Shown here piece after piece: positions 978 to 12,900 of a stretch of 64,000 nucleotides of DNA (position 1 is its first letter; every line of letters begins with the position of its first letter). The notes below the pieces were generated by a model. That model saw only the letters and a list, made by a program, of their open reading frames with translations. It was not told the DNA's origin and did no database searches. The stretch is from Diphasiastrum complanatum (Eukaryota; Streptophyta; Lycopodiopsida; Lycopodiales; Lycopodiaceae), in NCBI GenBank assembly GCA_029204225.1, contig CM055106.1, forward strand, positions 38,703,827-38,767,826, read 5' to 3'. The translations under genes were made by a program, and so were the position numbers.

Positions 978-3900
978 GTATTTTCAAAGCTCGCCTTTGT
1001 AGTGTAATCGGCTATGAATCCTGATTATCTAAGCACAGAAGTACTAGGAACAATCTGTTTTCAGAGAAATTATTGAGATGTAAATGGTCGATTCCGTTGT
1101 TTCGAAAGCTTTGAAACAAGAAAAACGATTTTATTTTTTCTATTCCAGGTAACATAATCAATCATTCATTATATTGCTAAAGGTGCCGTTAGCATCTGAA
1201 TCTGAAGTTCAGCTGTAACTGTATTCGTGTTCAATCTGATAACGACTACATGAATCACGACTATAAGTCAGACCTGACTTCAGAAGTCTCATAACAAGCT
1301 TGGAGTCTGGGCCCTACATGGAAAAGTCTTACAGGGCATAAATCTTATAGCATACTTTAATAAAAATTCAAAAAACATTCTAACATTGGATCGGACTAGT
1401 TTTAAAACACACGGATTATTCTAATAATAATGTATTCATATCAATGATACGCCTCCAACATATATGCATTCAAATCAAGAGAAAGATCTTCGTTGGAAAG
1501 AGTTATTTGATATAACCAAGTATGGGTAACCTTGGATAAATGTTAGGCCCTCAAGAGTAGACTAATAGAGAGGTTAACATTATAACAAATAAACTGGGTG
1601 ATTCATAAAACAATTATTTCAAGGGAACATTAATCTAATAAAAATGTGAACATTTATGGAGGGTATCAGAAAAAAGTGACGATTCTGCATTGAACTATAT
1701 TGCAAATGCTGGTGATGGATGGCGATGGAAGTTGGGCTAGTGAACACGTCGTTGAAACCCTAAACCTTAAAAAAAGTGCATGTATGGAAGGCCTTGTTGA
1801 CAGGTTTAACTCATTTGAATTTTGGTGAGACCCTAAGCCCTAAAACGGTGTAGTAGACCCCTCATATACATGTGAAATAACACTTATCTAGGTCAGGTGG
1901 GAGTAAATTACTCTAACAAATAATAGTTAACACTTTTGCTCTGTAAAATTCTGGGGAGTAAGAAAAAACTAACTTTCACAAAGGATTAACATTTATAGAG
2001 GTAACATCTATCTAGGGTTGACTGTAGCTCTTTTCCAAAATTAAAACTCAAACCAAAGAAGAGGTGTCATGATGAGAGTTATCTTTTTTTCCTACCTTTC
2101 TAAAAACATAATATATACTTTGCCTTTCAAAATGCAGGCTTGCTTAAGGATCGTTTGGGTACTTGTGTTTAACTCACTACGGGCCCATTGTGGAGTGTGC
2201 ACCATCAATGCAACATGTAGTCATTGCAAGAAAAACTATAGGGAATTACGTGCAAGAAGAAGATGGATAGAACAAACAAGTTTTTATTATCTTAGCGAAA
2301 TTTTTTTTTCCACTCTTATATAGTTGAGTGCATAAAATCGCATATCAATGTAATCAATGTTATAAGCGCTTTGCCATTTCGTGATGGCACGTCCTTTGTC
2401 ATGCATTTGTGTGCTCTTCTTCTCCCCATCAGACTCCCTTTCTAGGTTAGCCTCCCACTTGTTTGAATTTGTTGTTGGGAATGCCATGGGGCCAAGGCAC
2501 CTAAGTGGGAGGCTTCCCATGTTCATTGTACTAGGCAAGATTGTCATGGTTCTAGCTAACAACTAGTCACACTTCTTGAAAATGCCGATCCACGTTGTAC
2601 ATAGGATAGGAAATTGGAACTTGTTGTACATAAGATGTAGTTGACATCATTGGTTGATACAATGATTTCATTATTCTTTGTCTTGTTGCTTCTGTGTGCT
2701 TGTTCATGGTGTGTGCACTTAGTAGCAACAATCTATCATACTTGTTTTTTAAGTGACTTCTCATTGTGTTTTAAGCCTACTAACTCACAATTCTAGTTTG
2801 TTGTAGTGTTACTCATACAATAACTCATATATATGTATGGATTCCATTGTTGAATTCAAAGTGGTCACATAAACATGTTGTGGTATAATGGCCATCTTTA
2901 GTCAACATAGTCAATCTAATGTCGGAGACATGAATTTGGCAATCAATGTCGGCTATGTTGGAAAACTTCGACATATTTATGAAGTAAATTACGATTGTGT
3001 GGTAAGTGCTTCATAATTTAGGTGACGTTATTCATGGTCTTCCATTGTGATGCCATTGTAACGACCAAGAAGGATGTACTTGTTTTTACAAAGTTGTTTG
3101 CAATGGATTGTCATGACACTTTGGTGTTACCACATTATTGGGAACTTATCCAAGCTTTTTTCAATGGAGTACTTTTGATGAAACATCAATCATAATGATT
3201 GCTTTTACCAAATGAACCCAAGTCTAATATGTATATATATCATAGTACCTCGTGGTACCGCTGGTATGGTACCGCCGATACCATATCAGTGGTACCGCCG
3301 ATACGGTATTCTCTGGGATCCGCAGTACCAGGGCGGTACCATTTTTAATATTTTTTTTATTTTTTAATATATTTTTAGTAATTTTTTTTTGCATATTAAC
3401 TACCAAAAAAGGACAAAAAAAAGTAAAAAAAGGGGGTTCTGGGTGTAAAAAAAGAGGGTACAGTACATGATGCAGGGGACTGTTGCAGTGGCACATGGGC
3501 ACTGCGAGTGAGCAGACCAAGGGGCCAATGGGAGACCAACACAGGGGGATAGCATCACATGGGGGCAAGTACAGAGGCACATGGGCATTGTGGGTGAGCA
3601 GACCATGGGCCCAATGGGAGACCAACACAGGAGGGAGCATCACATGGGGGCAGGTACAGAGGCACATGGAGGGATGATGGGGATCCACATGGCCGATCAG
3701 GCTGTGGGGATAAATAGGCACTCACAATGCCATTGTGGTCGGCATTTTCAGAGGCTGTTAGAGGGCTAGTGATAGACAGTGAGAGAGCAAGCGAGAGCCG
3801 GTGACATCCTGTGCACCAGCCTCTAAATCATCCTGTGCACCAACCTCTGAATCATCCTGTGCACCAACCCCTGAATCAACCCAAGCCTCATCCCGTGCCT

Positions 3901-9900: not shown

Positions 9901-12900
9901 TACACTCTATTTCATCAGGGATGTCACTTCCAAACTACATCTGAGAAAGAAATTCTTCACACTCAGAATGTCTGATGCAGACACTATTTCCAGCCATCTC
10001 AACACATTCAAAAACCTAATGGAGCAGATGATTGCAACAGGATCAAAAATTGAAGATTCAGATGCAATGATGACTCTTTTATCAAGTCTCCCTGATGCCT
10101 ATAAACATGGGTCATGGCTTTTTTGACCCAGCAGCAACTAACTATCCAAAGTCATCTCAATACTATTACAAGAGGAGATCAAAAGAAATGCTTCCTCCTC
10201 AGGCTCAGGATCAGATCCTCAAGCTCTTTACACAAAGAGAATGTCTAAAATGGTGAACTCTTGCAACCTTGACAAAGATGACTCGAAGGTTGATCACACC
10301 TCGAAGGTCGAAGACGAAGCAAAGGTCGAAGGAAAAGTATTCGACGTTCGTCCCTGCAACCAAATGCCCGAAGACCAGGAAGTGCCGAGGATGAACCCTG
10401 ACCGAAACAAAAGATAAACAAGTCGAGCTAACAATTGTCAGCTCGACAAGCGTGAAGTCTTGTACTATCACGCTCAGCCGCCATAGGCGACATTGACATA
10501 GGGTAACTAATTGATTAGCGTAAACCTATCTTGTAATTCATAGTTAAACTATCTTGTAAAATCCACGTAGTGGATATATACACAAGATAGATTACTACAA
10601 TTGTGCGACGAGAGAAGTAACAAAAAAGAGCACAATTAGAGAGCCGTGTTAGCTTACTGTTAGCACTATTAGCTATGCACGAAAGTCTGTCAACGAACAA
10701 AACATAGCAATTTTTGTTAGGGCAGTGACGGCGCCAACGTGCGAGATACTGATAAACTCACTCAAAAAAAAAAATTCAAATACAAATGCTCTATTCTATT
10801 CCATCTCTCATTGTTCGTGTCGTTTAAACTGATAGAATAATTTGAAGCCTGTGGTCTGTAGCGGATGACAACAATCTATTATTTAAAAAAAAATTCCAAA
10901 GTGTTTGACTCTTTCAAGAAGTTCATGGCATTCGTAGAGAGACACACCTCGAAGAAGGTACAGACCATCAGGTCTGACAATGGAGGTGAGTACAAGAGCA
11001 AGGAGTTCTCAAACTTCTGCCAGGAACAAGGAATAGAGCATTAGTTCACTACTACATACACACCAAAATATAATGGTGTCGTAGAAAGAAGAAACAAGAT
11101 ACTAGTTGAAGGAGTCAGATGCATGATGGCACATGCTCAATTGTCGAGCCAATTTTGGGTTGAGGCAATAGCTGCAGAATAGATCGACAACGACAGCCCT
11201 AGAAAACAAGACACCATATGAGATGTGAACAGGCGAAAAACTTGATCTGTCATACGTTCCCCTTGTGGCAGCATGTCCGTCCCGACAGGCAGCGACTACT
11301 GGACACCTACGGGCCACGTCTCGTGGCGGGGGAGAACACCATTTCAGAGGGCGTTCTCCGGTTTTGCACCGCTCCTTATGTGGCTGACCCAGAGTTGCTG
11401 CCTGCTTGGTTGGCACACACGAGGAGAGGGAGTGCCCATGTGCTGTTGCACCTGTCCCCTGCACCATGTACTGGACCCTCTTTTTTTACACCCAAAACCC
11501 TTTTTTTTCACCATTTTTTAAAGCCTATTTTACTATATAAAAGGCAATAATTAAATATAAAAAATATAAAAAAAAAATTTAAAAATGGTACCGCCCTGGT
11601 ACCGCGGATCCCAGGGTGGTACCGTACTGGCGGTACCACCATTATGGTACCGGCGGTACCATGACGACGGTACCACGTGCCACTATGATATATATATATA
11701 TATATATATATAAGGAAGCGAACCCCGCGTTTGAACGCGCGTCCGGGGGTCGAGACGCGTCCAGGGGTCCAGACGCGTCCGCTTTTTTTTTTTAGAGTTA
11801 TTTAGCCAAAAAAAAAAAAAAAACGCGTCGGACCCCGCGTCCGGGGGTCGGATGCCGGACGCGGACCTGGAATGCCCGCGTCTGGCCCGGAGGACCCTCA
11901 TGTCTGATATTATATATATATATATATATATATATATATAGAGAGAGAGAGAGAGAGAGAGAGAGAGAGAGAGAGAGAGAGAGAGAGAGAGAGAGAGAGA
12001 GAGAGAGAGAGAGAGAGAGAGAGAGAGAGAGAGAGAGAGAGAGAGAGAGAGAGAGAGAGAGAGAGAGAGAGAGAGAGAGAGAGAGAGAGAGAGAGAGAGA
12101 GAGAGAGAGAGAGAGAGAGAGAGAGAGAGAGAGAGAGAGAGAGAGAGAGAGAGAGAGAGAGAGAGAGAGAGAGAGAGAGAGAGAGAGAGAGAGAGAGAGA
12201 GAGAGAGAGAGAGAGAGAGAGAGAGAGAGAGAGAGAGAGAGAGAGAGAGAGAGAGAGAGAGAGAGAGAGAGCTTTATTAATGTCTTTCCATGCCAAAAGG
12301 CATATAAGACTAATGAAGTACATGTCAAGTATGTGGTAACCATGGGATTGTGTAAAACGTCTCCAAAACTGTAATAAAGAAAACATCTAATACAGACTAA
12401 AACTAAAATGGACATGTATGCCAGAGTGTGTGTGCATAATAATCATCCGTAGGTGTCATGATGTCAAAGCTATGATGCTGTTGATGCTACTGTAAAAAGA
12501 TGTGATGCGAGCCGCAACATGAGAGAGCACTGGAGTCTGTCGGTGTCGTCTGTGAGCATGAGCATGTGTAATAGTACGTCTCTGTGTAGGGTGTCTGGTG
12601 ATCCTGGTAGTAGCGTGATGGTAGGGGGTACACTGTCTCTGATCTCTATGAGCAAGTGAGCTACTATCATCCGCATCGTCAAAATCATCATCCTCGGGCA
12701 CTAAGTCACGTGATCTCCGTCGAGTGAAGAATGAAGAAATCAGTGGCTGTGACTGTGAGGTAGATTACTGGGGTGTCCCGTATATATCTCCCCATGATAT
12801 GAACATCTCGCGTACCAACAGAGCGACACATCGTGGGTCCTCATAGGCTATGAGGGAGCGTAGAGTGGTAGGCATGTCTTGGAATAGGCAATGATATCGC

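Follow-up and report, generated by a model that had tools for sequence, protein, structure and literature searches.

The hAT superfamily of transposable elements includes Ac/Ds, as well as Hermes, hobo, and Tol2. Here, we describe a hAT-like family of Diphasiastrum complanatum, two copies of which lie in a 64,000-nt stretch of contig CM055106.1 (positions 38,703,827 to 38,767,826; hereafter, the window, which starts at C15:38703827), using genome-wide searches that covered the 1.745-Gb assembly. Among the described hAT elements, Hermes inserts at the target pattern nTnnnnAn (PMC10368747, PMC2803484), and Tol2 favors AT-rich, palindrome-like targets (PMC2753552); these and all other papers are cited from partial texts, to which our comparisons are limited. 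The window family resembles Hermes, hobo, and Tol2 in its 8-bp duplications, its nTnnnnAn pattern (as in Hermes), and its subterminal repeats. It differs from Hermes and Tol2, for which these texts give no comparable microsatellite specificity, in that ~64% to ~78% of its ends lie in alternating AT in a locked register and in that its subterminal repeats are dense GGTACC palindromes.

The insertion habit of the family recalls several plant elements outside the hAT superfamily. MuTAnT of Medicago likewise combines an autonomous-type element with shorter relatives in (TA)n, has a minority of non-TA copies that reveal the true duplication, and shows longer tracts at occupied sites, but it is Mutator-like, with a mudrA transposase and 9-bp duplications (PMC4486113). 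SaTar elements of guayule and rice share the non-nested end-to-end arrays joined by microsatellite, an architecture termed modular; however, they are non-autonomous Mutator-like elements (MULEs) that also occupy non-TA microsatellites and for which a recombination model was proposed (PMC5907723). Similarly, ~74% of the pineapple Ac-mMITEs are flanked by (TA)n, with clusters of adjacent insertions and recent amplification, although these are miniature inverted-repeat transposable elements (MITEs) that were called Mutator-like from their 9/10-bp duplications (PMC8449440). Micron of rice and TAFT of maize, which we know via citing papers, occur in TA microsatellites as well, and TAFT is called a MULE rather than a hAT element (PMC5907723). 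Searches of the open-access literature listed no hAT family for which TA-microsatellite targeting is described, with subscription papers and Repbase lying outside the search.

Four types of ends were distinguished in the family, i.e., R (CATAGGTCCCGC), R′ (CATAGATCCWGC), L1 (CATAGTGGCACGT), and L2 (CATAGTACCYCGT), and whole-genome pattern searches for the exact ends took the 20 bp outside each end as its flank. We analyzed 400 termini, comprising the first 100 of the 1,028 R, 639 L1, 485 L2, and 792 R′ matches; these lie on contigs C1 to C5 and are not a random sample, the pattern left out flanks with a G at position −20, and duplicates stayed among the 400 and were removed for the consensus only. 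The insertions strongly prefer alternating AT, and their register is locked. Specifically, the last 12 bp of the flank were within two mismatches of (AT)6 at 309 of the 400 termini, as compared with 2 termini that fit the other register and 89 that fit neither, and the octamer ATATATAT was counted 266 times in this sample versus once for TATATATA. Across the genome, 1,117 exact R ends were found, with ATATATAT preceding 710 of them and TATATATA preceding none. Neither register predominates in the genome as a whole, which has 222,522 (AT)10 and 221,404 (TA)10 positions. A perfect (AT)10 stood directly against 187 of the 400 termini, a 3,665-fold enrichment that becomes ~3,370-fold after correction for the exclusion of G at −20. 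The preferential integration into TA microsatellites that a sequence-only reading of the window had proposed is therefore borne out, and copies with non-TA flanks are a minority. Its claim of an exclusive location inside (TA)n holds for the two window copies and fails for the family, since the 89 non-TA termini rule out exclusivity to (TA)n. An age trend in this preference was too weak to claim, both from the right ends (84 of 100 R versus 71 of 100 R′ ends in TA; Fisher p = 0.04) and from the left ends (81 of 100 L2 versus 74 of 100 L1, both registers counted; p = 0.31).

Next, duplications were assessed by joining neighboring R- and L-type ends, which gave 72 convergent pairs, 33 of them informative. 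Among these 33, 14 matched at all eight positions, as compared with 1.7 expected after shuffling (maximum of 6), while nine differed at one base and ten at two or more. The 19 pairs with a non-TA octamer accounted for 13 of the perfect matches, with one differing at one base and five at more. Two further perfect non-TA duplications were GTTGGAGG in L010 (L numbers denote fetched loci) and GTTGCAAC at C2:78599676, so that perfect 8-bp duplications were observed at 15 non-TA copies representing 14 distinct octamers; two of the copies derive by duplication from a single insertion. The idea that the TA tract is part of the element is ruled out as a general rule, since identical ends are also present where there is no TA and where an 8-bp duplication flanks the element. 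In 81 distinct non-TA flanks, T occupied position 2 in 52 (p = 3e-6) and A occupied position 7 in 57 (p = 2e-11), both p values being computed against upstream composition, and the two coincided in 38. The target pattern at non-TA copies is thus nTnnnnAn, which ATATATAT fits and TATATATA does not, and this explains the register.

The transposase was best represented by L025, a complete copy of 6,245 bp (C2:32777412-32783656) whose 672-aa open frame comprises a zinc-finger-like N-terminus followed by the full profile of DUF659 (PF04937, E = 1.7e-40), which we take to be a mark of plant hAT transposases. Two more frames come after it, one of 158 aa that weakly matches the hAT dimerization domain and a low-complexity one of 545 aa. 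We class the family as hAT-like because it combines this DUF659 match with the perfect 8-bp duplications that flank 15 of the non-TA copies, in agreement with the identity proposed earlier. A phmmer search of the transposase against the PDB yielded nothing relevant. With the second DUF659 piece of the window as a protein query, we obtained 10,188 first-look candidates, and among the best 150 of these, which were scored, 63 had the 672-aa open frame. In one case (G000:C7:27971434-27971796), the transposase match lay inside a frame open over 3,915 aa, well beyond the usual 672. L016 was 99.8% identical to L025 over 4,681 bp, and the remaining fetched copies showed about 82 to 98.5% identity to it. 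On sequence grounds, the spread of identities from ~82% up to 99.8%, together with the many 672-aa frames, points to a family that is high-copy and old yet also very recently active.

We then compared the two window copies with the family. The features of this region are as follows (window coordinates; strand where assigned).

3233–3240: octamer ATATATAT left of copy 1, a presumed target duplication; the same octamer is at 7550–7557 and is indistinguishable from the tract
3241–7549: copy 1, a decayed, internally deleted hAT element with an L2-type left end and an R-type right end; transposase on (−)
3254–3340: subterminal GGTACC array, 4 exact sites, copy 1 left
4678–5286 (−): hAT C-terminal dimerization-like exon (Pfam PF05699, E = 0.0026, short of the gathering score)
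5580–5978 (−): DUF659 region, second part (PF04937, E = 2.3e-21), separated from the first part by one stop codon
5979–6413 (−): DUF659 region (hAT transposase core), first part (Pfam PF04937, E = 1.6e-11)
6257–7378 (−): open frame of copy 1, zinc-finger-like (CCHC, BED-like) N-terminal part of the transposase
7464–7530: subterminal GGTACC array, 6 exact sites, partly as GGTACCGCGGTACC, copy 1 right
7550–7625: (AT)38 tract right of copy 1
8818–8857: (AT)20 tract left of copy 2
8858–11687: copy 2, a degenerate hAT member with an R-type left end and an L1-type right end
8892–8943: subterminal GGTACC array, 4 exact sites, copy 2 left
9800–11044 (+): Ty1/copia gag and integrase fragments in copy 2 (Pfam PF14223, E = 2.3e-26; PF00665, E = 1.5e-7, just under the gathering score)
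11587–11674: subterminal GGTACC array, 7 exact sites, copy 2 right
11688–11712: (AT)12 tract between copy 2 and the second repeat family
11713–11906: second, unrelated GC-rich repeat family, with similar copies in six fetched loci besides the window

Copy 1 is 96.9% (ends) and 95.4% (main part) identical to L025, lacks ~1.9 kb of its interior, and contains in-frame stops; the TA on its left extends for only ~9 bp (3232–3240). Copy 2 retains only short hAT ends (82–83% identity to L025 over ~270–295 bp on each side), its interior consisting of the Ty1/copia fragments. Both copies carry short terminal inverted repeats of the C-A...T-G type (CATAG...CTATG), with imperfect likeness beyond 5 bp. 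As the earlier reading stated, CATAG/CTATG stands directly against TA at all four termini, and its count of four to seven GGTACC sites per terminus within ~100 bp is exact (4, 6, 4, and 7). These termini hold 21 of the 25 GGTACC sites in the window; the number expected for the whole window is 5.5 (standard deviation, 2.2; maximum in 100 shuffles, 10).

Such arrays recur elsewhere in the family. We found 2,483 genomic occurrences of the 14-mer GGTACCGCGGTACC, as compared with one for its reversed-letter control, and all 13 GGTACC sites of L025 are subterminal (positions 14–96 and 6160–6221). The first 110 bp of each of 46 distinct fetched ends contained 2 to 7 GGTACC sites, i.e., at least two in 46 of 46, although many of these loci had been picked through the GGTACC 14-mer, which biases the sample towards arrays. 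The mean number per end was 4.9 for R (n = 19), 2.6 for R′ (n = 7), 4.0 for L1 (n = 8), and 5.7 for L2 (n = 12), versus at most 0.04 in shuffled sequences. The palindromic nature of the presumed BED-finger site had been called unusual, a description that would not hold, as paired Hermes sites form a quasi-palindrome (PMC10368747).

Elements were also observed end to end, in several orientations and with TA alone between them (L005, L008, L017, L018, L020, L022, L043, L045 to L048, and L051). The R, L1, and L2 ends that were listed included 18 head-to-head gaps, measuring from 6 to 288 bp, and in 17 of these the number of bases was even. At G000:C2:22233141-22233176, two facing L1 ends are separated by ATATAT, which at 6 bp is shorter than a single duplication of 8 bp would predict. 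The second repeat family, with ends CTAAGGAAG... and ...GACCCTCATSYCTGA and no evident inverted repeats, shares the TA tracts of the hAT family, its ends standing mostly, though not always, against TA or AT-rich DNA. Its copies occur in L013, L016, L018, L026, L041, and L077, and matches to its ends in L036, L037, L042, L067, L070, L071, and L076; in L016, one pair of its copies is joined head to head.

One filled and empty pair was observed directly. The empty site is at C2:23275699, where a 62-bp tract without interruption, (AT)6AC(AT)n, runs from an upstream hAT end to unique DNA. The unplaced contig C2635 shares this upstream end (identical at 61 of 61 bases), the marker, and the unique DNA, but has a 6,247-bp hAT element within the tract, leaving 48 bp of TA on the left and 82 bp on the right. 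C2635 may be an allele or a duplicate of the C2 locus, and the empty site may have arisen by excision from C2. L018 and L026 are duplicates of each other that remain nearly identical and share one compound array, but their TA tracts differ in length, indicating fast change after duplication.

We consider it likely that the family moves by hAT-type cut-and-paste transposition into nTnnnnAn octamers, with a very strong added preference for alternating AT, and that end-to-end arrays result. The transposase would cut out the element and paste it into 8-bp nTnnnnAn sites, and every second octamer of a TA microsatellite (ATATATAT) fits this pattern, which would make insertion there frequent and confined to one register. 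Since TA would be left on both sides of each insertion, later copies could insert alongside, thereby forming end-to-end arrays, and the tracts would also change quickly in length. The AT preference would reside in the transposase, and its zinc-finger N-terminus may bind the palindromic GGTACC sites, perhaps in pairs as in Hermes.

Several observations weigh against this interpretation. The nTnnnnAn consensus accounts for the register and not for the enrichment; because the target pattern leaves the enrichment unexplained, we infer that an added preference for alternating AT, i.e., flexible and easily melted DNA, would lie behind it. The Dimer_Tnp_hAT match in L025 (E = 0.0018, 18.5 bits) does not reach its cut-off of 21.4. 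The same is true of the zf-BED match to its N-terminus (E = 0.082, 13.4 bits versus 20.6), so that the BED finger of the sequence-only reading finds a weak match that stays below the cut-off; the CxxC...H...C arrangement in this N-terminus was recognized by eye only. Furthermore, ATATATAT stands on both sides in 39 of the 72 pairs, which are uninformative and make duplications in TA tracts mostly unprovable; the duplication had been described as invisible, and this applies to these 39 and not to the other 33. Among the 14 informative TA-like pairs, one matched at all eight positions (ATATGTAT), eight were off by one base, and five by two or more; one additional marked TA-like match (ATTTATAT at C2:62019267) was among non-adjacent pairs. 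This marker-base test, with its 1 match in 14, does not separate mispairing of neighbors, later tract mutation, and real absence of a duplication, and most duplications inside TA tracts are either hidden or inexact. Presence and absence were seen at one of four comparable chromosome/contig places, the insertion being on both members of the other three pairs (C4669, which corresponds to the window, C2120, and C2568). Finally, at four repeat-flanked places (the hAT host at L025, a LINE beside L038, a copia element beside L068, and a repeat beside L050), other copies of the repeat have no long TA at that position. As empty sites, these four are ambiguous, with one flank comparable or old divergence; they indicate that some tracts lengthened, or first appeared, in the copy concerned. 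Our conclusion is that elements do enter tracts that are already there and that tracts lengthen in place as well, as reported for MuTAnT (PMC4486113).

These points bear on the alternative explanations. If short ATATATAT sites were the targets, and the TA tracts were for the most part secondary, having grown from the 8-bp duplication after insertion, the absence of long TA from other copies of the four host repeats would be expected, as would the 130 bp of TA at C2635 in the filled state versus 62 bp in the empty one. Precedents exist in Medicago MuTAnT, where empty sites have nine TA repeats on average, with longer flanks at occupied sites (PMC4486113), and in maize TAFT, where empty sites are said to be 6–8 bp (PMC5907723). 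However, the single clean empty site is already 62 bp long, some flanks are compound microsatellites such as (CT)n(AT)n and (AC)n(AT)n, and tract growth would still need a strong preference for ATATATAT, as seen at 710 of the 1,117 right ends; we regard this alternative as rather unlikely. Spread by homologous recombination of circular intermediates with TA filler, as proposed for SaTar (PMC5907723), rather than by ordinary integration, appears improbable. Such recombination would fit the end-to-end arrays with TA between elements, a fixed register inherited along with the filler, and the lack of an exact 8-bp duplication in 13 of the 14 informative TA-like pairs. It does not fit the perfect 8-bp duplications that the same termini show outside TA in 15 copies, the nTnnnnAn pattern common to non-TA targets and the ATATATAT register, or the two marked duplications within TA-like flanks (ATATGTAT and ATTTATAT).

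Selection could also leave the elements in TA tracts, which are presumably harmless, if integration had no special AT direction and insertions elsewhere were purged. We judge this very improbable, given that an enrichment of more than 3,000-fold would demand the purging of nearly all other insertions from a largely repetitive genome and that the locked register would have no explanation. Lastly, the TA-targeting plant families with a superfamily assigned in the literature, as far as the available texts go, are all Mutator-like, and a Mutator-like (SaTar/MuTAnT-type) or Tc1/mariner element was accordingly a candidate in place of hAT. Both are disfavored by the domain and duplication data, and such an assignment is scarcely credible. 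The TA-targeting Mutator-like class would be expected to leave duplications of 9–11 bp (9 bp in MuTAnT; PMC4486113) and Tc1/mariner a TA dinucleotide, whereas the duplications observed at non-TA copies are of 8 bp. Moreover, neither Pfam scan of the open frames (window and L025) matched a Mutator (including mudrA-type) or mariner transposase domain, as opposed to the DUF659 and weak Dimer_Tnp_hAT matches.

Analysis of the genomic setting revealed two open reading frames on the (+) strand, at 579–1004 and 24314–24727, with matches, respectively, to the deaminase part of RibD (riboflavin biosynthesis) and to its C-terminal domain. These are probably two exons of one gene with a giant, ~23-kb intron, which would make both hAT copies intronic, the type of location where the earlier reading supposed that the element would be neutral; LINE fragments also lie between them. 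Perfect (AG)n microsatellites are present at 11940–12271, (AG)166, which directly continues a TA tract, and at 21881–22024, (AG)72. Further along the window, 38360–40155 (−) contains a PIF1-like helicase fragment, which we take to be a possible Helitron remnant, together with a neighboring open reading frame without a Pfam match, and 54971–56965 (+) contains an intronless PPR gene with an E motif and a 665-aa open frame.

On balance, we lean slightly towards the view that this is the first hAT family with near-dedicated microsatellite targeting, one that reads alternating AT in a single register, renews its own landing pads by gaining 8 bp with each insertion, and shares its arrays with a second family. 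What adds most is that the register is locked and that it agrees with the target pattern of hAT transposases. Because duplications are hidden in TA-targeting Mutator-like elements, recombination had been proposed as their mechanism; in the present family, the superfamily is hAT, and the register in the TA tract is visible, fixed, and in agreement with a Hermes-like target pattern. Unlike the duplication, the register can be read in nearly every copy, and the mechanism is therefore testable. The same TA niche has thus been reached by a different superfamily, and the many open frames of equal length offer a practical starting point for biochemistry. If the proposed mechanism is true, the family would offer a naturally occurring tool for TA-tract integration that seems still to be intact.

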